Origin: Kribbella capetownensis
GTDB taxonomy: Bacteria; Actinomycetota; Actinomycetes; Propionibacteriales; Kribbellaceae
Direction: 5' to 3'
DNA: 64,000 bases
Assembly: GCF_004331485.1 (NCBI RefSeq)
Contig: NZ_SJKD01000007.1
Span: forward strand, 248,001 to 312,000
Position numbers and translations under genes: made by a program. The notes under the pieces were generated by a model. It was not told where the DNA came from. It did no database searches and worked only from the letters and a program-made list of their open reading frames with translations. Below, piece by piece: positions 1-10,841 of the stretch. Numbering within the stretch: position 1 is the first letter of the stretch; each line of letters begins with the position of its first letter.

Positions 1-309
1 CGCCAGGATCCGCGACTGCTCCAGCGTGCCGAGCAGGTCCGCGGCCAGGCCGGCGCTGTCCGCGGCCTCGATCCAGCCGCGGAATCCGACCGCTGTGGTG
101 ACGACGACGTCGTCCGGCGGGTTCGCGATCACCCGCCGGGTCGCCTCGAGCAGCGCATGGTCGTCGGCGACCGGCACGATCTGCAGCGTCGGCGCGTGCA
201 GCACCTTCGCACCGCGCCGCTCGAACGCCGCGATCAGGTCGTCCGCGCGGCGGTGCGCGGTGACCGCGATCGTGCAGCCACTGAGTGGCCCCGGCCTAGC
301 CGTGCTCAC
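1..309 (-). CDS. Uroporphyrinogen-III synthase (HemD-like), N-terminal part, cut by window start
   Basis: Reading the minus strand from a GTG at 309 gives about 103 residues of a HemD-type fold: a start like STARPGPLSGCTIAVTAHRRA, then AAFERRGAKVLHAPTLQIVP and a VVVTTAVGFRGW segment typical of uroporphyrinogen-III synthases. The enzyme closes hydroxymethylbilane to uroporphyrinogen III, the precursor of siroheme, the cofactor of the nitrite reductase encoded just upstream. The GTG overlaps the nirD stop by 14 bases, so it is the last visible gene of the nitrate operon. In many actinobacteria this protein carries a C-terminal winged-helix response-regulator-like domain; that part lies outside the window. 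Confidence 0.8.
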   Translation of the reverse strand, partial: MSTARPGPLSGCTIAVTAHRRADDLIAAFERRGAKVLHAPTLQIVPVADDHALLEATRRVIANPPDDVVVTTAVGFRGWIEAADSAGLAADLLGTLEQSRILA

Positions 310-637
310 TGAGATTCACCATCACCTGTCCGTCGACGATCTCGACCTCGTACACAGGCAGCGACACCGACGGATCGTCCAGGCATTCGCCGGTGCGCAG
401 GTCGAAGACCTGCTTGAACATCGGCGACGCCACCGTCGGCACCTCGCCTCTGCTCCCCACGATGCCACGCGACATCACGTTCGCCCCACTGAACGGATCC
501 TGGTTGCCCAGAGCAAACACCTCGCCGGCGTGGGTCCGGAACAGCGCGAGCTGCAGCTCCCCGGCCAACGCGGCGACACCACGCTCCGGCAGCAGCACGT
601 CGTACTCACACACCACAAACGCGGTCGTGACGCTCAT
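296..637 (-). CDS. nirD: Nitrite reductase [NAD(P)H] small subunit
   Basis: The 113-residue protein has the Rieske-like NirD fold seen in assimilatory nitrite reductase small subunits: a core FALGNQDPFSGANVMSRGIVG, then PMFKQVFDLRTGECLDDPSVSLPVYEV. It lacks a clear CxH...CxxH Rieske cluster motif, as is usual for NirD. It works with the siroheme large subunit in six-electron reduction of nitrite to ammonium in the cytoplasm. Its ATG (635-637) overlaps the TGA of the large subunit (634-636), so translation is probably coupled. Confidence 0.93.
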   Translation of the reverse strand: MSVTTAFVVCEYDVLLPERGVAALAGELQLALFRTHAGEVFALGNQDPFSGANVMSRGIVGSRGEVPTVASPMFKQVFDLRTGECLDDPSVSLPVYEVEIVDGQVMVNLSEHG

Positions 638-3600
638 CGGCGTACCTCCAATCGGGGACCGGCCAGCAGCACCGGCTCCAGCTGTCCGCGTTCGGCCGGG
701 GTGGCGGGCCGCGGCTGGTTGCGCTCGACCACGTACCGCAGATCGGCGTCCGGCTGGTCCGGCGCGTTCACGAAGGAGACGAACCGGGCCAGCTTGTCGG
801 GGTCGTTGAGCGTCGCCTGCCACTCGTCGACGTACGAGTCGACATGCGCGGCCATCGCAGCGTCCAGGTCGGCGGCGATGCCGAGACTGTCGTTCAGTAC
901 GACGTCGCGGACGTGATCGAGACCGCCCTCGATGTCGTTGATCCACACCGCGGTTCGCTGCAGCCGGTCGCCGGTGCGGATGTAGTACATGAGGAACCGG
1001 TCGATCGCCCGGAAGAGCTCCTCGTCGGCCAGGTCGGACGCGAGCAGTTCCGCGTGCCGTGGCGTCATGCCGCCGTTGCCGCCGACGTACAGGTTCCAGC
1101 CCTTCTCGGTCGCGATCACGCCGACGTCCTTGCCACGCGCCTCGGCACACTCCCGCGCGCACCCCGACACCCCAAGCTTGAGCTTGTGCGGCGACCGCAG
1201 CCCGCGGTACCGCAGCTCCAGCGCGATCGCCATCCCGACAGAGTCCTGTACGCCGTACCTGCACCAGGTGGAGCCGACACACGACTTCACGGTCCGCAGC
1301 GCCTTGCCGTACGCGTGCCCGGACTCGAAGCCGGCGTCGACCAGCCGCTTCCAGATCGCCGGCAACTGCTCGATCCGCGCACCGAACAGGTCGACCCGCT
1401 GGCCACCGGTGATCTTCGTGTACAGGCCGAAGTCGCGGGCCACCTCGCCGATAGTGATCAGACCCTCAGGCGTGATCTCACCGCCGGGGATCCGCGGGAC
1501 GACGGAGTATGTGCCGTCCTTCTGCATATTCGCCATCACGTGGTCGTTGGTGTCCTGCAGCGTCGCCCGCTCGCCGTCGAGAACGTGACCGGCGGGGTCC
1601 AGGCTGGCCAGGATCGACGCGACCACCGGCTTGCAGATGTCGCAACCGCGTCCGGCGCCGTGCCGCTCGACGATCTCGCTGAACGTCCGCAGCCCGGTCA
1701 CCCGGACGACGTCGAACAGCTCGGCGCGGGACAACGCGAAGTGCTCGCAGAGCGCCTTGCTGACCTCGACACCGGCCTTGGTGAGTTCGGAGTTCAGCAG
1801 GTTCTTCACGATCGGCAGGCAGGAACCACAACTGGTCCCAGCCTTCGTCTTGCCGCACACCGACTTGATGTCGGTGCAGCCGTCGTCGCGGACCGAGCAC
1901 CGGATCGCGCCGGCCGACACGTTGTTGCATGAGCACACCGGCGCGTCGTCCGGAAGCTCGAGCTTGACCGGCCCTGCACCCTCGGGCAGCAGGAATGCCG
2001 CCGGGTCCGCCCCGAGTTCACGGCCCACCATCGGGCGGAGTCCGGAGTACGCCGATGCGTCGCCGACCAGGATGCCGCCGAGCAACGTCCGGGCGTCGTC
2101 GGACAGGACGAGCTTCTTGTAGACACCGGCGACTGGGTCTGCGTACACGATGTCCAGCGCACCCTCGGTCGCGCCGAACGCGTCCCCAAAGCTGGCGACG
2201 TCGACACCGAGCAGCTTCAGCTTCGTCGAGGTGTCCGCTCCGGGGAATGTCGCGCCACCGCCGAGCAACCGGTCGGCGACGATCTCCGCCATCGTGTAGC
2301 CGGGAGCAACCAATCCCCAGACCCGGCCCTCGATGCAAGCGACCTCGCCGATCGCCCAGACGCCCGGCACCGACGTCCGGCAGCCTTCGTCGACCACGAC
2401 ACCGCCGCGTTCCCCGATCTCCAGACCGCCCACCCGGCCGAGCTCGTCCCGCGGCCGTACGCCGGTCGCGAACACCACCACGTCGGCCGGCAGATCAGGG
2501 CCGTCGGCAACGGCCATCGCCCGGGCCGCGCCTTGGGACGTCAGCTTCACCCGGTTGCACTGCGTCGACACCAGCACCTCGACGTCAAGTCCTTCGATCA
2601 ACCGGGCGAGGGCAGCGCCGCCGCCCTCGTCGACCTGCAGCGGCATCAGCCGCGGCGCGAACTCGACCACCTTCGTCGCGGCACCCAGCGCCCGCAGCGC
2701 GCCGGCCGCCTCGAGCCCCAGCAGGCCACCGCCGACGACCACACCGCTGACCTGCCGGCCCTCCGACTTCAGCCGCTCGACGTAGACCCGGAGCGCGGCG
2801 ACATCGTCGACGGTCCGGTAGACGAAGCAGCCCTGCGCGTCGTTGTTCTTCACCGGTGGGACGAACGCCGACGACCCAGTGGCCAGCACGAGTTCGTCGT
2901 ACTTGACCTGCTCGCCGCGCGCGGTGGTCACGGTCTTGCCGGTAGTGTCGATCGCGGTGACCTGTACGCCCTTGCGGAGCGTCACCGCTGGGTCGTCCCA
3001 GAGGTCGGGTTCGCCGAGCGAGAGGTCGTGGGGGTCGCGGCCGGAGAAGTAGCTGGTCAGCGCGACCCGGTCGTACGGCAGCCGTGGTTCCTCGGCCAGC
3101 ACGGTGATCCTCCACTGGATCTCGGTGTCGCGCGATCGCAGTGCCTCCACCAGCCGGTGCGCGACCATGCCGCCGCCCACCACAACCACGTGCCGGGCCT
3201 TCTTCAGCTCTGTCATCGTCGCCCTCCTGCTGGGAACTGGTTCGGTCTCGCCGCGCCGGAAGCGGTCGAGCAGTTCGCCGACGGCGCCGGTGCAACTACC
3301 GCACCCGGTCGTCGCCCGCGTCGTGGCGGCGATGCCGGCGACACTGTCGGCACCTCCACGCCAGGCCGCCTCGATCGCGGCCCTGGTGACCCCGTTGCAG
3401 CGGCAGACGGTGGTCACCTTCTTCTGCGGTACGACGGGATCCGCCAGCAGCCCGTCCGCCGCGACCGGCGTCCCGCGGTCCGCCAGCAGCACCAACTCAG
3501 CGGCCACCTCGGGCGCCCCGATCGCCACCGCGGAGCGGACCACGCCGTCGCGCAGCACGGCCCGCACATACCGTTCCCCGTCCTCGAGCCGCACCTCCTC

Positions 3601-4530
3601 GCCGTTCTCGTCTTTGTTGCCTAAGGCAAGTACATCGAGTCCACCGGTGGTCAGCCGCAGTACGTCGTACTCCGGGACACCGGCCGGCTCACTGTTCAGC
3701 TGCCGCGCCAGCGCCTCGGCCTGACCCCACGCGGACGCGACCGTCCCGCTGACCCAGCCATCGACCTCGGCACAGTCCCCGATCGCGTGCACTCGCGGAT
3801 CGTCCGGGCTCGTCAACGTGCGGTCGACAACGATCCCGTCCCGCACCGTCAACCCGTCCGCCAACTCTGTCCGCGCGTGCACCCCACAAGCCACCACCAA
3901 CAAGTCCCCGAACACCTGCCGCCCGCCACGCAGGGTCAGCGCCCGGAAATTCCCATCCCGCGAGGCAACCTGTTCAACCGTTGCGTTGAGCAACACCTCC
4001 ACGCCCAACTCGCGAACCGCCCGCGTGACCCGCCGCCCTGCCGATCCTCGAACCGCCTTGTTCAGCAGCGTTTCGCCGTCATGCATCAGCGTGACCGGCA
4101 CGCCACGTCCACGCAGAGCGCAGGCAGTCTCGACGCCAAGCACACCGCCACCAAGCACAACCACCCGTCGTACTCGACCAGCCGCGCCAACAAGAGCGCG
4201 GGCATCGGCAACGGAACGCAAGGTGTGAGCTCCGGCGGAACCAACAACCTCGGAAGGCACCGCGCCAGTCGCAAACACCAACCGGTCGTACGGCCACTCG
4301 CGTCCGGCGGAATCTGTTACTACGCGGCGGCTACGGTCCACGGCAACCGCTGTGGTGACTGGCTCATCGCCGAGGGAGGGCTCGGGCGCGCGGCCGGCGA
4401 CGTACTCGGTGAGGCGGCTGCGGTTGTACGACGGCTCGTCGCCCAGCACCGTCACGTCGTACGATGCCAACAGCTCTGCCAACCGCCGACCGGCCATCCC
4501 ACCGCCGATGATCACCACGCGCGGGTTCAT
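634..4530 (-). CDS. nirB: Fused nitrate-reductase electron-transfer flavoprotein (NasB-like) and nitrite reductase large subunit (NirB)
   Basis: One uninterrupted frame of 1298 residues. Residues 1-438 are a complete NasB-like unit: FAD site VVIIGGGMAGRRLAE, NAD site VVVLGGGVLGVETA, then a [2Fe-2S] BFD domain with CRC and CGSC. Residue 439 is an internal Met that begins a full NirB (about 860 residues): two Rossmann sites (VVVVGGGMVAHR, GVVVGGGLLGLEAAGAL), BFD motifs (CSCNN, CGSC; later CDIC), and the siroheme/4Fe-4S half-domain with SCVGSTWC and GCARECAEARGKD. The first half should pass electrons to the nitrate reductase, the second reduces nitrite with NAD(P)H. The ATG at 4530 overlaps the stop of the nitrate reductase gene (ATGA). 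An AGGAGG at 3223-3228 sits before internal Met439, so a separate NirB may also be made. A lost stop codon through sequencing error cannot be excluded. Confidence 0.9.
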   Translation of the reverse strand: MNPRVVIIGGGMAGRRLAELLASYDVTVLGDEPSYNRSRLTEYVAGRAPEPSLGDEPVTTAVAVDRSRRVVTDSAGREWPYDRLVFATGAVPSEVVGSAGAHTLRSVADARALVGAAGRVRRVVVLGGGVLGVETACALRGRGVPVTLMHDGETLLNKAVRGSAGRRVTRAVRELGVEVLLNATVEQVASRDGNFRALTLRGGRQVFGDLLVVACGVHARTELADGLTVRDGIVVDRTLTSPDDPRVHAIGDCAEVDGWVSGTVASAWGQAEALARQLNSEPAGVPEYDVLRLTTGGLDVLALGNKDENGEEVRLEDGERYVRAVLRDGVVRSAVAIGAPEVAAELVLLADRGTPVAADGLLADPVVPQKKVTTVCRCNGVTRAAIEAAWRGGADSVAGIAATTRATTGCGSCTGAVGELLDRFRRGETEPVPSRRATMTELKKARHVVVVGGGMVAHRLVEALRSRDTEIQWRITVLAEEPRLPYDRVALTSYFSGRDPHDLSLGEPDLWDDPAVTLRKGVQVTAIDTTGKTVTTARGEQVKYDELVLATGSSAFVPPVKNNDAQGCFVYRTVDDVAALRVYVERLKSEGRQVSGVVVGGGLLGLEAAGALRALGAATKVVEFAPRLMPLQVDEGGGAALARLIEGLDVEVLVSTQCNRVKLTSQGAARAMAVADGPDLPADVVVFATGVRPRDELGRVGGLEIGERGGVVVDEGCRTSVPGVWAIGEVACIEGRVWGLVAPGYTMAEIVADRLLGGGATFPGADTSTKLKLLGVDVASFGDAFGATEGALDIVYADPVAGVYKKLVLSDDARTLLGGILVGDASAYSGLRPMVGRELGADPAAFLLPEGAGPVKLELPDDAPVCSCNNVSAGAIRCSVRDDGCTDIKSVCGKTKAGTSCGSCLPIVKNLLNSELTKAGVEVSKALCEHFALSRAELFDVVRVTGLRTFSEIVERHGAGRGCDICKPVVASILASLDPAGHVLDGERATLQDTNDHVMANMQKDGTYSVVPRIPGGEITPEGLITIGEVARDFGLYTKITGGQRVDLFGARIEQLPAIWKRLVDAGFESGHAYGKALRTVKSCVGSTWCRYGVQDSVGMAIALELRYRGLRSPHKLKLGVSGCARECAEARGKDVGVIATEKGWNLYVGGNGGMTPRHAELLASDLADEELFRAIDRFLMYYIRTGDRLQRTAVWINDIEGGLDHVRDVVLNDSLGIAADLDAAMAAHVDSYVDEWQATLNDPDKLARFVSFVNAPDQPDADLRYVVERNQPRPATPAERGQLEPVLLAGPRLEVRR
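3221..3230 (-). promoter_or_regulatory. Internal ribosome binding site before the NirB half
   Basis: On the minus strand GCAGGAGGGC ends four bases before an ATG (3214-3216), giving near-ideal Shine-Dalgarno spacing. It lies inside the open nasB::nirB frame at the domain junction. This is the expected site for a free-standing NirB start and suggests that the fused frame once was, or still functions as, two genes. Confidence 0.6.
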
Positions 4531-6665
4531 GCGGAGACTCCGGTCACCGGGAGACTCGCGGCGCTCACCTCGACGGCACACGCCTTGAACTCGGGCATTC
4601 GCGACACCGGGTCGAGCGCATCGTTGGTCAGCTCGTTGACCGCCTCCGAACCACCGAAGTGGAACGGCACGAACACGGTGTCCGGACGCACATCCGCCGT
4701 CACCCGCGCCGGCAGCACCATCGACCCACGAGCGGTCCGCAACCGCATCGGCCGCCCGTCCGCGATCCCCAGCTGCGCAGCCACCCGCGGATGGATCTCC
4801 GCGAACACCTCCGGCTCCGCCGCCGCCAACTCCGGCACCCGCCGCGTCTGCGCCCCACTCTGGTAGTGCTGCAAGAGCCGGCCGGTCACGAGATACATCG
4901 GCGCTGCGGCGTGCAGATCATCCGCAACCGGCCGATGATCCACCGCCACCACGTGCGCCCGCCCATCCGGCGTACTGAATCCGTCCGCGAACAACCGCGG
5001 CGTCCCCGGATGCCCCGGAGAAGGAACAGGCCAGAACAACGCCTCCCCCGCGTCGATCCGCTCCCACGTGATCCCCGAGTAGTCAGCCTTCCCACCAGCA
5101 CTCGCCAGCCGCAGTTCCTCGAACACCTCAGCCGGATCAGTCGAGAATGCGGCCCCACACCCCAGCCGCGAAGCCAATCCAGCAAAGACAGCCAGATCGC
5201 TCCGCACCTCACCAGGCGGCGCGATAGCGGCCTGCCGCCGCAGTACCCGCCCCTCGAGGGACGTCATGGTGCCCTCTTCCTCGGCCCACTGCGTCACCGG
5301 GAAGACGACATCCGCCAGCAGCGCGGTCTCGGACGGTACGACGTCCGCCACCACCAGCAAGTCCAATGCAGCAAGGCGTTCCCGCACTGATGCAAGCCGC
5401 GGTGCCGAGACCAGCAGATTGCTCCCGTGCACGAGCAGCGCCCGCGGACCACCCGCCGTACCCAGCGCGTTGATCAGCTCGACCGCGCTCTTGCCCGGAC
5501 CAGGCAGGTCCTCAGGATCCACACCCCACACGCGTGCAACGTGAGCCCGCGCGGCCGGATCGGAGATGCTGCGGTACCCCGGCAACTGGTCCGCCTTCTG
5601 CCCATGCTCCCGACCGCCCTGACCGTTCCCCTGTCCGGTAATGCAGCCGTAGCCACTCCCCAGCCGCCCCGGCAGACCAAGTGCCAACGCAAGGTTGATG
5701 CACGCAGTCACCGTGTCCGTGCCCTTGCTGTGCTGCTCAGCGCCACGCCCGGTCAGAATGAACACTCCGTCGCCGCCGTGCACCGGTGCAGCAGCCGCAA
5801 GCACCCGGGCCGCCCGCCGGATCGTCGCAGCCGGCACGCCCGTCACCCGCTCGGCCCGCTCAGGCCACCAAGCCGCAGTCGAGCGGAACAACCCCTCCGG
5901 GTCGTCCGTCCGCTCACTCAGGTACGCCGTGTCCGCAAGCCCTTCCTGCAGTACGACGTGCGTCAGCGCGAGCACCAACGCCAGATCGGTCCCCGGAGTC
6001 GCCTGCAGATGGATTCCTGCGTCGTCTGCGGTCAGCCCGGCCGTCGCAGTACGACGCGGATCGACCACGAGCAGCCCGCCCGCGTCCCGTGCGCTCTGCA
6101 GATGAGCGACCGCCGGCGGCATCGTCTCGGCGAGGTTGCTGCCGACCAGCAGCACCACACCCGCACCACCGAGGTCGGCCAGCGGGAACGGCAGCCCGCG
6201 ATCGATGCCGAAGGCGCGGTTCGTCGCGGCCGCCGCGGACGACATACAGAACCGTCCGTTGTAGTCGACGTTCGCGGTCCTGAGCGCGACCCGGGCGAAC
6301 TTGCCCAGCGCGTACGCCTTCTCGTTGGTCAGCCCACCACCGCCGAAGACCGCAACGCTGTCAGAGCCGTACGACGCTTGGAGCGACCGGATGCGATCCG
6401 CGACGAAGTCCAGCGCCTCGTCCCAGCTCGCCGCCACCAAGTTCCCCGCGGCGTTCCGCATCAGCGGCGTCGTGAGCCGGTCCGGCACGGTGAGGACCTC
6501 CGGCGCCGTCCAGCCCTTCCGGCACAGCCCGCCGCGGTTGGTCGGGCCGCCCTCAAAGGCTTGAATGGCGCGGGGCTGCACCGACACCTGCACCCGGTCG
6601 ACCGGGTGCAGGGTCGTCGCGCACTGCAGAGCGCAGTACGGGCAGTGAGTCGGAACAGCCGTCAC
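4527..6665 (-). CDS. nasC: Assimilatory nitrate reductase catalytic subunit (molybdopterin oxidoreductase)
   Basis: 712 residues, the size of NasC-type catalytic subunits that lack an own C-terminal BFD domain. The N-terminal 4Fe-4S ligands are C8, C11, C15 and C48 (HCPYCALQC...LCRKGW). C140 in NGRFCMSS is the expected molybdenum ligand. The C-terminus (from about residue 590) is a molybdopterin-dinucleotide-binding domain with the LVTGRLLQHYQSGAQTRR segment. It reduces nitrate to nitrite in the cytoplasm using electrons from the flavoprotein encoded next. The GTG start (6663-6665) overlaps the narK stop as GTGA. A longer upstream extension in the same frame is only antisense to narK's coding phase and was dropped. 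Confidence 0.92.
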   Translation of the reverse strand: MTAVPTHCPYCALQCATTLHPVDRVQVSVQPRAIQAFEGGPTNRGGLCRKGWTAPEVLTVPDRLTTPLMRNAAGNLVAASWDEALDFVADRIRSLQASYGSDSVAVFGGGGLTNEKAYALGKFARVALRTANVDYNGRFCMSSAAAATNRAFGIDRGLPFPLADLGGAGVVLLVGSNLAETMPPAVAHLQSARDAGGLLVVDPRRTATAGLTADDAGIHLQATPGTDLALVLALTHVVLQEGLADTAYLSERTDDPEGLFRSTAAWWPERAERVTGVPAATIRRAARVLAAAAPVHGGDGVFILTGRGAEQHSKGTDTVTACINLALALGLPGRLGSGYGCITGQGNGQGGREHGQKADQLPGYRSISDPAARAHVARVWGVDPEDLPGPGKSAVELINALGTAGGPRALLVHGSNLLVSAPRLASVRERLAALDLLVVADVVPSETALLADVVFPVTQWAEEEGTMTSLEGRVLRRQAAIAPPGEVRSDLAVFAGLASRLGCGAAFSTDPAEVFEELRLASAGGKADYSGITWERIDAGEALFWPVPSPGHPGTPRLFADGFSTPDGRAHVVAVDHRPVADDLHAAAPMYLVTGRLLQHYQSGAQTRRVPELAAAEPEVFAEIHPRVAAQLGIADGRPMRLRTARGSMVLPARVTADVRPDTVFVPFHFGGSEAVNELTNDALDPVSRMPEFKACAVEVSAASLPVTGVSA

Positions 6666-8029
6666 ACGCGCTCCCCACTCAGCGGGCCGCCCTTGCGCAG
6701 GTAGCAGAAGTACGTCACGGCCAGGCAGACCACGTAGAAGCCGCAGAAGACGTACAGCGCGGGAATCAGCGAGCCGAAGTGGCTCGTCGACATCGCGAAG
6801 CCGCGCGGGACCAGGAAGCCGCCGTACGCGCCGACCGCGGAGGCGATGCCGATGCAGGCCGCCGCCTCGCGCCGGGCCCGACCCGGATCGCCCGGTGTGG
6901 TCAGCCGGAACACCGCCGGGATCATCCGGTACGTCGATCCGTTCGCGGCGCCACTGGCGACGAACAGGACCAGGAAGCTGATCAGGAATCCGGCGAAGCT
7001 GCCCGCGTTCAGCGACACGATCGCGGCCAGGATGCCCAGGCCCATCACGACGAACGAACAGACCGTCACCCAGGCGCCGCCGACCAGGTCGGCCAGCTTG
7101 CCGCCGAACGGCCGCGCCACCGAGCCGACCAGCGCGCCGAGGAAGGCGATGCCGGCCCCGGTGACGTCGGGGAACGTGGTCTTGATCAGCAGCGGGAACG
7201 CGGCCGAGAACCCGATGAACGACCCGAAGGTGCCGATGTAGAGGAACGAGATGATCCAGGTGTGCGGTCGCTTCGCCGCCGTCACCGAGGTCCGGAACGA
7301 CGAGGTCGCGACGGACAGGTTCGCCATCACCTTCCACGCCAGTACGGCGGCCAGCACGATCAGCGGGATCCACAGCAGGCCGGCCCGGTTCAGCGACAAC
7401 CCGGCGCCGGCCACGATCACGATCGGCACCACCAGTTGGACCACAGCGACACCGAGGTTGCCGCCGGCCGCGTTGATGCCGAGTGCGAAGCCCTTCTCCT
7501 TCTCCGGGAAGAAGAACGAGATGTTCGTCATGCTGCTCGCGAAGTTGCCGCCGCCGACGCCGGCGGTGGCCGCGACCAGCGCCATCAGCCAGAACGGCGT
7601 GTCCGGCTGGGTCAGGAAGTAGGACAGCCCGGCGGTCGGCACCAGGAGGAGCAGCGCGGAGACGATGGTCCAGTTCCGGCCGCCGAACCGTGGGACCGCG
7701 AACGTGTACGGCAGCCGCAGCGTCGCGCCGACCAGGCTGGGCAGCGCGACCAGCCAGAACAGCTGGTCGGTGCTGTAGGTGAAGCCCGCCTTGGGCATCG
7801 ACACCACGACGATGCTCCACAGCTGCCAGACGGAGAAGCCGAGAAACTCGGCGAAGATCGACGGCCACAGGTTGCGCCGCGCCACCCGGCGGCCGGTCCG
7901 CGCCCAGAACGTGCCGTCCTCGGGATCCCACACATCGATCCAGCGGCCGCGGCGCGGCGCCTCGACCGTTCCGACCGTCCCGGTCCGGTCGCGGTGAGTG
8001 ACGACCTCCGGTCGTGCCTCCAGCGTCAT
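6662..8029 (-). CDS. narK: Nitrate/nitrite transporter, MFS family (NarK)
   Basis: 455 residues with about 12 hydrophobic segments. NarK signatures are present: GVGGGNFASSMTNISFFFPEKEKG and NLGVAVVQLVVP, the nitrate-signature region of the nitrate/nitrite porter family. It should import nitrate and/or export nitrite. First gene of the operon feeding nasC and the nasB::nirB frame. The ATG at 8029 is about 55 bases downstream of a GlnR-like box, consistent with nitrogen control. Confidence 0.92.
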   Translation of the reverse strand: MTLEARPEVVTHRDRTGTVGTVEAPRRGRWIDVWDPEDGTFWARTGRRVARRNLWPSIFAEFLGFSVWQLWSIVVVSMPKAGFTYSTDQLFWLVALPSLVGATLRLPYTFAVPRFGGRNWTIVSALLLLVPTAGLSYFLTQPDTPFWLMALVAATAGVGGGNFASSMTNISFFFPEKEKGFALGINAAGGNLGVAVVQLVVPIVIVAGAGLSLNRAGLLWIPLIVLAAVLAWKVMANLSVATSSFRTSVTAAKRPHTWIISFLYIGTFGSFIGFSAAFPLLIKTTFPDVTGAGIAFLGALVGSVARPFGGKLADLVGGAWVTVCSFVVMGLGILAAIVSLNAGSFAGFLISFLVLFVASGAANGSTYRMIPAVFRLTTPGDPGRARREAAACIGIASAVGAYGGFLVPRGFAMSTSHFGSLIPALYVFCGFYVVCLAVTYFCYLRKGGPLSGERV

Positions 8030-8084
8030 CGTGCGTCTCCGATCATCCGGCCCGACTAGTAGGCCAGGACGCTATGACCGGGGT

Positions 8085-8122
8085 GTTTCCGAGCGGTCAT
8101 CTCGTTGTTACGCCGCAGAAAC
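8085..8122 (-). promoter_or_regulatory. GlnR-like box upstream of the nitrate operon
   Basis: Four pentamers are spaced by exactly six bases: GTTTC-n6-GTCAT-n6-GTTAC-n6-GAAAC (plus-strand reading). The right half GTTAC-n6-GAAAC matches the gTnAC-n6-GaAAC a/b site described for actinobacterial GlnR. The box is 56-93 bases upstream of narK's ATG. GlnR is known to activate nitrate assimilation genes in actinomycetes; binding here is inferred from the pattern. Confidence 0.6.
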
Positions 8123-8188
8123 GGCTCCCGCACACCCCGCGGTGGGTGGTGAGAGAAGACGTTGCCGGGCTGGGTACTGTGCCTACTC

Positions 8189-10390
8189 ATGGGCCGCACC
8201 GACGGCGAGGGGACAGCGGTGGAACACAACGAACAGCAGAGCCCTGACAGCGACAACCGGCCTCGTAAGAGCCGGGGCCGTTGGGCCTGGCGGGCGGCGA
8301 TCGCGGCGGTCCTGATCGGGTGGCTGGTGCTCGGGTCACTCGGCGGTCCGACGGTCGGCAAGCTGAGCGAGGTCCAGGAGAACGACAACGCGAACTTCCT
8401 GCCGAAACAGGCCGAGTCGACCCTGGTCGCGAACGAGTCGGCCAAGTTCGTCGACTCCAAGGCCCTGCCGTACTTCGTCCTGATCGTGCGCGACTCCGGT
8501 ATCACGCCGACGGACCTGGCCAACGCGAAAGCCTTTCTCGCCTCGGTCCCGGCGATGGACCTCGGCGACGGCACGACGATCGGCGACTACCTGGCCGCGC
8601 CGGCCACGACGATCGTCCCGTCGGAGGACAAGAAGGCGCTGCTGCTCACTGTCGAGATCGACGGCGACCGGGCCGACGAAGTGGTCAAGGACGGCGAGAC
8701 CGTGCTGTTCGCGGTCGCCGACACGATGCGCACCGAGATCAAGCAGACTCTGACCCCGACCGGTCTCGATGTCTACGTCACCGGTCCGGGTGGTGTGTTC
8801 GCGGACTTCGTGGTGGCGTTCAGCGGCATCGACGGGATCCTGCTCGGTGTCGCACTCGCGGTCGTCTTCGTCATCCTGCTCATCGTCTATCGCAGCCCGG
8901 TCCTGCCGATCGCCGTCCTGCTCACCGCCGTCTTCGGTCTCGCCCTCGCCGCGCTGGTGGTGTATCCGCTGGCCAAGAGCGACGTACTCGAACTGAACGG
9001 GCAGAGTCAGGGCATCCTGTTCATCCTGGTGGTCGGGGCCGCGACCGACTACTCACTGTTGCTGGTGTCGCGGTACAAGGAAGAGCTGCACGACTACGCC
9101 GGCAAGTACCAGGCGATGCGGATCGCATGGCGGGCCGCCGTCGAGCCGATCGCGGCCAGCGCGGCGACCGTCATCCTCGGTCTGCTCTGCCTCCTGCTCT
9201 CCCAGCTCGGCAGCACGAAGGGTCTCGGCCCGGTCGGCGCGATCGGCATCGCCGGCGCTTTCATCTCCGCGATGACGTTCCTGCCCGCGATCCTGCTCGC
9301 GTTCGGGCGGCGGATCTTCTGGCCGTCGATCCCGCGGCTCGACCACGTGCACGCGCGCGATCAGGTCGGCGGACGCAAGCTCTGGGGCCGAGTCTCTGGA
9401 CTCGTCGGCCGCCACCCGCGCCGGGTCTGGGTCATCACCGCGCTGGCTTTGCTCGGGTGCGCCGCGTTCCTGCCGACGTTCAAGGCAAGCGGTACGTCGC
9501 AGGAGGACCTGTTCCTGAACAAGGTCGAGTCCGTCACCGGCCAGGAGGTGCTCGGCCAGCACTTCGACGCCGGCGCCGGTACGCCGGTCCAGATCCTCAC
9601 ACCGGCAGATCGGGCCGACCAGGTGGTCCAGACCGCGTCGAAGGTGGACGGCGTCGCGACCGCGTCCGCCTCGGTGGCTCCCGGCGTACCGCCGAAGGTC
9701 GTCGACGGGAAGGTGCTGGTCCAGGCCACGCTGAAGGTCCCGGCCGACTCACCGGAGGCGACCAAGGTCGTCGAGCATCTGCGCACCGAGCTGGACACGG
9801 TCAGTCCGGACGTCCTGGTCGGCGGCAGTACGGCGATCAACCTCGACGTACTCGACGCCAGCAAACGCGATCTGCGCGTGATCATCCCGACCATCCTGAC
9901 GGTGATCTTCGTCGTCCTGATGCTGTTGCTGCGCTCGATCGTCGCGGCCGTGCTGCTGGTGGTCGCGAACGTGCTCTCGTTCGGCGCGACCGTCGGGGTG
10001 AGCGCGATCGCGTTCAACCACATCTTCGAATTCCCCGGCGCGGACCCGAGCATCCCGCTCTACGCGTTCGTCTTCCTCGTTGCCCTGGGCATCGACTATT
10101 CGATCTTCCTGATGACCAGAGTGCGGGAGGAATCCCAGGAACAAGGGACCAGACCGGGCATCCTGGTCGGCCTCGCGGTCACCGGCGGCGTGATCACGTC
10201 GGCCGGCGTCGTGCTCGCGGCGACCTTCTCGGCGCTCGCGGTGCTGCCGATCCTGTTCCTGGTCCAGATCGCGTTCATGGTCGCGTTCGGCGTACTGCTG
10301 GACACGACCGTGGTCCGCTCACTGCTGGTGCCCTCGCTGGCCTATGACATCGGCAAGCGGGTCTGGTGGCCGAGCAAGCTCTCGTCCTAG
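8189..10390 (+). CDS. MMPL/RND-family transporter
   Basis: 733 residues with the two-fold MMPL layout: one N-terminal transmembrane helix, an extracytoplasmic loop, a six-helix bundle with GAATDYSLLLVSRYKEEL, a repeat of the same order, and a second bundle with FLVALGIDYSIFLMTRVREE. Such proteins export lipids or drugs using the proton gradient. Two starts are possible: ATG 8189, seven bases after a TACTGT hexamer (leaderless), or GTG 8219 with GAGGGGA upstream. It is divergent from narK. Confidence 0.88.
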   Translation: MGRTDGEGTAVEHNEQQSPDSDNRPRKSRGRWAWRAAIAAVLIGWLVLGSLGGPTVGKLSEVQENDNANFLPKQAESTLVANESAKFVDSKALPYFVLIVRDSGITPTDLANAKAFLASVPAMDLGDGTTIGDYLAAPATTIVPSEDKKALLLTVEIDGDRADEVVKDGETVLFAVADTMRTEIKQTLTPTGLDVYVTGPGGVFADFVVAFSGIDGILLGVALAVVFVILLIVYRSPVLPIAVLLTAVFGLALAALVVYPLAKSDVLELNGQSQGILFILVVGAATDYSLLLVSRYKEELHDYAGKYQAMRIAWRAAVEPIAASAATVILGLLCLLLSQLGSTKGLGPVGAIGIAGAFISAMTFLPAILLAFGRRIFWPSIPRLDHVHARDQVGGRKLWGRVSGLVGRHPRRVWVITALALLGCAAFLPTFKASGTSQEDLFLNKVESVTGQEVLGQHFDAGAGTPVQILTPADRADQVVQTASKVDGVATASASVAPGVPPKVVDGKVLVQATLKVPADSPEATKVVEHLRTELDTVSPDVLVGGSTAINLDVLDASKRDLRVIIPTILTVIFVVLMLLLRSIVAAVLLVVANVLSFGATVGVSAIAFNHIFEFPGADPSIPLYAFVFLVALGIDYSIFLMTRVREESQEQGTRPGILVGLAVTGGVITSAGVVLAATFSALAVLPILFLVQIAFMVAFGVLLDTTVVRSLLVPSLAYDIGKRVWWPSKLSS

Positions 10391-10400
10391 GGTGCGAACC

Positions 10401-10841
10401 ATGGAGACGTTCGAGGGCACGATCGTGGTGAACGACGGCGGCGGCGCCTGGGTGGAAGTGCCGGGCGAGGTGATCGCCGGGCTCGGTGGCGGCGGGCGGA
10501 TCCCAGTGCAGGCGACGTTCGACGGCGTCGCGTACCGCGGCTCGATCGCGTCGATGGGTGGGTGCATGGCGCTCGGCATCCTGAAGAGCATCCGCACCGA
10601 GCTGGGCAAGGGTGCCGGCGATCCGGTCACCGTCACGTTGCAGCCAGACGCGGCCGAGCGGACCGTCGAGGTGCCGGCCGATCTCGCCGCGGCGCTAGAG
10701 GACGCCGGGCTGCGGAAGGCCTTCGACGCGTTGAGCTACAGCCATCGCCGCGAGCACGTGAACGCGATCAACGACGCGAAGAAGCCGGAGACCCGCACCC
10801 GCCGAATCGGCAAGACACTGGAGATGCTCAATCCCTCCTGA
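10401..10841 (+). CDS. DUF1905/YdeI-like (OmpD-associated family) protein
   Basis: 146 residues. The N-terminal half (residues 1-90) resembles DUF1905: an FEGTIVVNDGGGAWVEVP opening and GRIPVQATFDGVAYRGSIASMGG. The C-terminal half resembles the YdeI/OmpD-associated domain (LSYSHRREHVNAINDAKKPETRTRR). The biochemical role is unknown. It starts 10 bases after the MMPL stop, so it is probably co-transcribed. Confidence 0.8.
   Translation: METFEGTIVVNDGGGAWVEVPGEVIAGLGGGGRIPVQATFDGVAYRGSIASMGGCMALGILKSIRTELGKGAGDPVTVTLQPDAAERTVEVPADLAAALEDAGLRKAFDALSYSHRREHVNAINDAKKPETRTRRIGKTLEMLNPS

Follow-up and report, generated by a model that had tools for sequence, protein, structure and literature searches.

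The window analyzed here, a 64,000-nucleotide stretch of the Kribbella capetownensis genome (NZ_SJKD01000007.1, positions 248,001 to 312,000), contains a gene in which nasB, for the flavoprotein electron donor of assimilatory nitrate reductase, and nirB, for the large subunit of nitrite reductase, share one open reading frame (ORF). We think it likely that this one gene gives rise to two proteins, a fused NasB-NirB donor/nitrite reductase and a free NirB that starts at Met439, inside the frame. The fusion is specific to the genus Kribbella: nasB and nirB lie in one stop-free frame in 36 of 38 Kribbella genomes (the window's own is counted among the 38), and NirB is present in all 38. Conservation of individual codons at the junction points to selection on the fusion and on the internal start alike.

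The fused ORF (634..4530, on the minus strand, as are all features of the window described here) runs from an ATG at 4530-4528 to a TGA at 636-634 and encodes 1298 amino acids without an intervening stop. The sequence-only reading had described such a frame, with both halves complete and AGGAGG ahead of Met439, and each of these points holds at the coordinates it gave. The flavoprotein part of NasB (amino acids 1-373; 3412..4530) has a Pyr_redox domain, matched best over residues 122-201, with FAD and NAD motifs. A BFD-like [2Fe-2S] domain (PF04324; amino acids 374-422; 3265..3411) follows, and its cysteine pattern is found in all 36 fused loci. Pyr_redox plus BFD in a protein encoded next to nasA is the make-up of a NasB-type flavoprotein; no NCBIfam model specific for a NasB-type subunit was among the best 25 of 46 families. 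In an AlphaFold model of residues 1-438, the mean predicted local distance difference test score (pLDDT) is 87.3 and the predicted template modelling score (pTM) is 0.83, and the best Foldseek matches of this model are BphA4-type ferredoxin reductases. NirB itself (860 amino acids, residues 439-1298; 634..3216) carries both PF01077 and PF03460 (NIR_SIR and NIR_SIR_ferr). TIGR02374 matches residues 448-1244 of the fused protein, and the 860-residue half on its own scores 1035.7 bits with this model, for which the cut-off is 578.35. A model of residues 1-959, made for contacts between domains, was uninformative about them (mean pLDDT 61.5, pTM 0.37).

Between the BFD domain and NirB is an in-frame linker (amino acids 423-438; 3217..3264), the last residues of which, 433-438, are predicted to be disordered (pLDDT <50). 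The junction reads CCC AGC AGG AGG GCG ACG ATG ACA GAG. The Shine-Dalgarno-like (SD) sequence AGGAGG (3223..3228) encodes Arg435-Arg436 and lies 6 bases 5' of the ATG of Met439 (3214..3216). The 3' end of 16S rRNA in the window's own genome contains the matching CCTCCTT. A scan with a sigma-70-type consensus, which says little for actinobacteria, found no promoter or terminator at the junction.

All 36 fused loci have ATG at the Met439 position, and 32 have an exact AGGAGG ahead of it; three others have AGAAGG (L031, L034 and L040) and one has AGGAAG (L041). The codons used for the two arginines are unusual. In the two columns under the SD, AGG accounts for 35 of 35 codons and for 33 of 36 (the other three are AGA), 68 of 71 in total, whereas it accounts for only 90 of 2960 codons in the other 83 of the 85 columns with an arginine share of 90% or more. 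The SD columns are the most AGG-rich of the 85, and their codons changed 0 and 1 times on the tree, compared with a mean of 7.4 over all 85. An SD core of at least 5 nucleotides precedes 32 of the 36 junction ATGs; among 494 ATGs at other in-frame positions in these ORFs, only 4 have one. The mRNA is also less folded near the junction (minimum free energy -21.2, compared with -31.0 at 144 sampled other in-frame ATGs). What lies at the junction is a conserved ribosome binding site with its start codon, embedded in a longer frame, as in genes that have an in-frame internal start.

The linker appears to be ordinary translated sequence under constraint, and not an untranslated tail, although the evidence is moderate and comes from few codons. 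The ratio of nonsynonymous to synonymous polymorphism (pN/pS; all regional values exclude L043) is 0.213 for the 11 linker codons upstream of the SD (amino acids 423-433), 0.149 for BFD, 0.149 for NirB and 0.377 for the flavin part of NasB. Insertions and deletions close to the junction (in L036 and L042) consist of whole codons. The faster evolution of NasB could be taken for decay of that half. We rejected this reading because NasB outpaces NirB in unfused genera too: the NasB/NirB divergence ratio has group medians of 1.4-2.9 in unfused groups and is 3.1 in Kribbella (up to 30 pairs per group).

The fusion was not found outside Kribbella. In a collection of 78 named loci it is present in 21, 20 of them under a Kribbella title and one under Streptomyces; K. 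pittospori is the nearest (96%). The locus titled Streptomyces sp. SID13031 (L077; NZ_JAAGLV010000022.1) carries the Kribbella fusion, and its record is probably misnamed, as its contig coordinates are those that the locus size and identity of a Kribbella genome (G027) would suggest. None of the other 57 loci is fused; nasB was found in 41 of them and not found in 16. Nor was there a fusion in any of 20 non-Kribbella loci selected on the grounds of a long open frame or an in-frame neighbor with a stop, and no stop-free full-length match occurs outside Kribbella among the matches listed for 391 order-level, 394 class-level and 396 phylum-level genomes (overlapping sets; those of order and class are listed best scores first). 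Some non-Kribbella matches began at about amino acid 373-440 and were stop-free, raising the possibility of a BFD-NirB fusion. This candidate was rejected: none of a further 20 loci, most of them picked for a match extending upstream of Met439 or for a long frame, is fused, and the in-frame peptide upstream of nirB in these loci is not a BFD domain. Sixteen of these 20 loci have nasB, which lies in a different frame in 15 and is closed by a stop codon in the remaining one; no nasB was found in the stretch covered for the other four. The three non-Kribbella sets (20, 57 and 20 loci) partly overlap. The expectation that NasB and NirB are usually encoded separately is borne out by the loci inspected outside the genus. 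Other Actinomycetia (Aeromicrobium, Janibacter, Isoptericola, Mumia and others) have the same domains, and nasB, where found, is usually just upstream of nirB, but there a stop and a separate start part the two genes. The NasB half in Kribbella is also shorter, at 427-458 amino acids (15 measured) compared with about 471-660 in 32 unfused NasB proteins.

Variants within Kribbella provide natural comparisons. The two genomes without the fusion, G017 and G030, encode only the NirB part. In a tree of NirB sequences they nest in different branches within the fused species, so that three changes of state are needed, which we read as one gain of the fusion and two losses. The tree comes from a short search that left 13 of 41 inner branches open; support is 94 and 82 for the nearest groupings of G017 and G030 and 98 for the branch separating the two. 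Orthologues of NasA (80-100% identity) are found in exactly the 36 fused genomes, and matches to NasA in G017 and G030 are only 36-38% identical and lie elsewhere in the genome. In both, nirB begins at or next to the stop of narK and is followed by nirD (G017: L044, 7995-10568, plus strand; G030: L045, about 8010-10562, plus strand). Apparently, nasA and nasB were lost twice, in the lines of G017 and G030. Since nasA and the NasB half were lost jointly and NirB was kept, NasB belongs with NasA, and NirB can operate without a NasB half. In both genomes the 36-38% match is a self-contained nitrate reductase-like protein with molybdopterin, flavodoxin, FAD and NAD domains (molybdopterin + flavodoxin + FNR), of 1379 amino acids in G017 (L144, 1173-5312, minus strand) and 1301 in G030 (L145, 5221-9126, plus strand). 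Candidate matches of 38-39% also occur in G003, G008 and G024, which keep nasA.

Two other species have an altered NasB half. In Kribbella sp. VKM Ac-2568 (G014), NasA, a NasB remnant and NirB form a single frame of 1865 amino acids (L043, 4998-10595, minus strand). The FAD and NAD motifs that we searched for are absent from this remnant; BFD, linker, AGGAGG and ATG are kept. In G028 (L040), the YNRxRLTEY loop in the FAD domain of NasB is deleted and a GD motif has become GA, with the BFD pattern and NirB both undamaged. An alignment of 35 NasB sequences, from which G028 was left out, shows residues of this loop and both letters of GD to be invariant. Among the remaining 34 fused loci, 33 keep all motifs tested and one (L030) has AIG for the motif ATG. 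The G014 frame suggests that nitrate reduction might draw on the flavin of NirB itself. However, the states of G014 and G028, two of 36 species, may also be plain decay.

We postulate that ribosomes starting at the nasB ATG (4530) would read to the nirB stop and produce the 1298-residue fusion, an NADH:nitrate-reductase flavoprotein joined to a nitrite reductase, and that ribosomes starting at the internal AGGAGG-ATG would produce free NirB of 860 residues. The NasB half would pass electrons from NADH through FAD and the BFD [2Fe-2S] cluster to NasA, a route that we infer from the domains and from the joint presence and loss of nasB and nasA. The NirB half would reduce nitrite together with NirD. 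The fusion would then place the donor for nitrate reduction beside the nitrite reductase, and internal initiation would add NirB. An output of fused protein, free NirB or both, with tethering of the two reductions, had been suggested by the sequence-only reading. The case for two products is now stronger, given the codon conservation at the internal start and the retention of NirB in species without NasB; the synthesis of both products, the balance between them and the tethering are still what we infer from the DNA.

A further idea, rather doubtful but worth stating, is that BFD acts as a covalent wire from the NADH-flavin site of NirB to nitrate reductase, so that one NADH site drives both reductions and the NasB flavin is dispensable. 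Transfer from the NirB flavin through BFD to NasA is plausible because the nitrate reductase of Paracoccus is fed from a NirB-type enzyme (PMC5424462, PMC4724949). The states of G014 and G028 would follow if this were true, G014 being the end state, an all-in-one nitrate-to-ammonia reductase, and G028 half-way to it.

Returning to the reading in which the gene yields both a fusion and free NirB, several observations weigh against an internal start. The pattern AGGAGGN{4,9}ATG occurs 3 times in the window, compared with 1.64 expected, which is not beyond chance; the significance of the internal motif therefore comes from its conservation across the genus. A gapped duplex-energy score, used alongside the count of exact cores, does not discriminate: the weakest junction is equaled or surpassed by 298 of the 494 other in-frame ATGs, and the mean score is -12.0 for a conserved ATG lying 16 codons downstream, compared with -10.1 for the junction. 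At most one codon change is seen in 6 of the 85 arginine columns, the SD pair being among the six. Synonymous divergence around the junction is low, but only within the lowest 4-9% of intervals scored, and the amino acids ahead of Met439 diverge to an average degree for the ORF. The pN/pS exceeds the linker value at the SD codons 434-438 (0.364) and at codons 439-446 (0.546). Finally, the SD is weakened in 4 of 36 species. The last point also fits the possibility, an unlikely one in our estimate, that only the fused protein is made and AGGAGG is a relic of a once-separate nirB, or makes ribosomes pause so that the NasB half can fold. SD-like sites within genes need not initiate translation, and every one of the 36 genomes with NasB or a remnant of it has the fused frame. 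A relic should drift, yet the two AGG codons have barely changed while AGG is rare at the other arginine columns, and the ATG is invariant at the usual SD spacing, a feature for which a pause site would have no use.

It is also conceivable, but improbable, that the halves act separately in the cell because the fused protein is cut or scarcely made, the fusion itself being neutral. The two species that retain NirB without NasB are in keeping with this, as are the separate genes of the relatives inspected outside Kribbella. Against it, the open frame has been kept in 36 species, changes of length near the junction are in whole codons only, and the pN/pS of the linker is low; together with the whole-codon changes, this low ratio is why we regard the linker as ordinary, constrained coding sequence. 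That the fusion is a sequencing or assembly artefact, or a pseudogene, can be dismissed for practical purposes. It is no sequencing error, because 36 of 38 Kribbella genomes carry the frame; the 36 are of different species, nine are single-contig assemblies, NirB scores well over its cut-off and the NasB half models well. This comparison of the junction among relatives, which the sequence-only reading had proposed, excludes a stop lost only in this assembly.

Several known systems come close to the Kribbella fusion. In Paracoccus denitrificans (NasB/NasG/NasC), the protein named NasB is the NirB-type nitrite reductase (PMC4724949); in contrast to Kribbella, neither a NasB-type flavoprotein nor a covalent fusion is described in the sections on this system (PMC4724949). 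Flp of Bradyrhizobium japonicum is an FAD/NAD(P)H flavoprotein whose gene is needed for growth on nitrate and not on nitrite (PMC4724949). Like the NasB half in Kribbella, Flp is a flavoprotein serving nitrate reductase, but flp is a separate gene beside nasC, and the nitrite reductase is NirA and not NirB (PMC4724949). NirBD fusions of fungi and some alphaproteobacteria resemble the Kribbella fusion in that NirB is enlarged by a partner from the same pathway (PMC4013037). Their partner is NirD, at the C-terminus, whereas in Kribbella it is NasB, at the N-terminus, and in the window nirD is a separate gene (296-637). Self-contained nitrate reductases of the Nas/CysJ type (NasA-flavodoxin-CysJ) combine donor and reductase in one chain (PMC4013037), the type seen in G017 and G030. 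These join nitrate reductase to its donor, whereas the window fusion joins that donor to nitrite reductase, and NasA in the window has molybdopterin domains only. In-frame internal starts that give N-terminal proteoforms, with two start sites in one frame, are known in bacteria (PMC11005335). In Kribbella, by contrast, the second start marks the boundary of a whole enzyme and is kept across the genus. We found no description of a NasB-NirB fusion in the open-access literature, a scope outside which most subscription journals fall.

Fusions and internal starts are each known, and the nearly genus-wide retention of both would make this gene a naturally occurring example of selection favoring two products. 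Species without the NasB half, or without its flavin part only, are ready-made tests of each half. The arrangement bears on the handover of nitrite, a toxic intermediate, and the gene breaks the one-gene, one-subunit assumption in the annotation of nitrate assimilation.

The fusion lies in the gene order narK-nasA-nasB-nirB-nirD, which we take to be the nitrate assimilation operon. Three of its junctions are formed by 4-base stop-start overlaps (GTGA or ATGA), and the fourth, nasB/nirB, is the sole one with a start site and no stop. A narK-type nitrate/nitrite transporter gene (6662..8029; MFS_1) overlaps nasA by GTGA; its product matches NF011608 and TIGR00886, both under cut-off. nasA (4527..6665; PF00384, PF01568 and PF04879), for the assimilatory nitrate reductase catalytic subunit, overlaps the start of nasB by ATGA. 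Its GTG start at 6665 is a likely assignment, the family searches used 4527-6656, and its score with NF047855, 737 bits, is under the cut-off of 1100. The gene for the small subunit of nitrite reductase, nirD (296..637; 113 amino acids), overlaps the end of nirB by ATGA, and its product scores 98.4 bits with TIGR02378 (cut-off 74.65). The end of nirD is overlapped in turn by a partial gene (1..309) that continues past the window edge. The protein at locus L148 (2180-3310, minus strand) has 376 amino acids, and from its sequence we take the product to be a putative NnaR-like uroporphyrinogen-III synthase with a winged helix.
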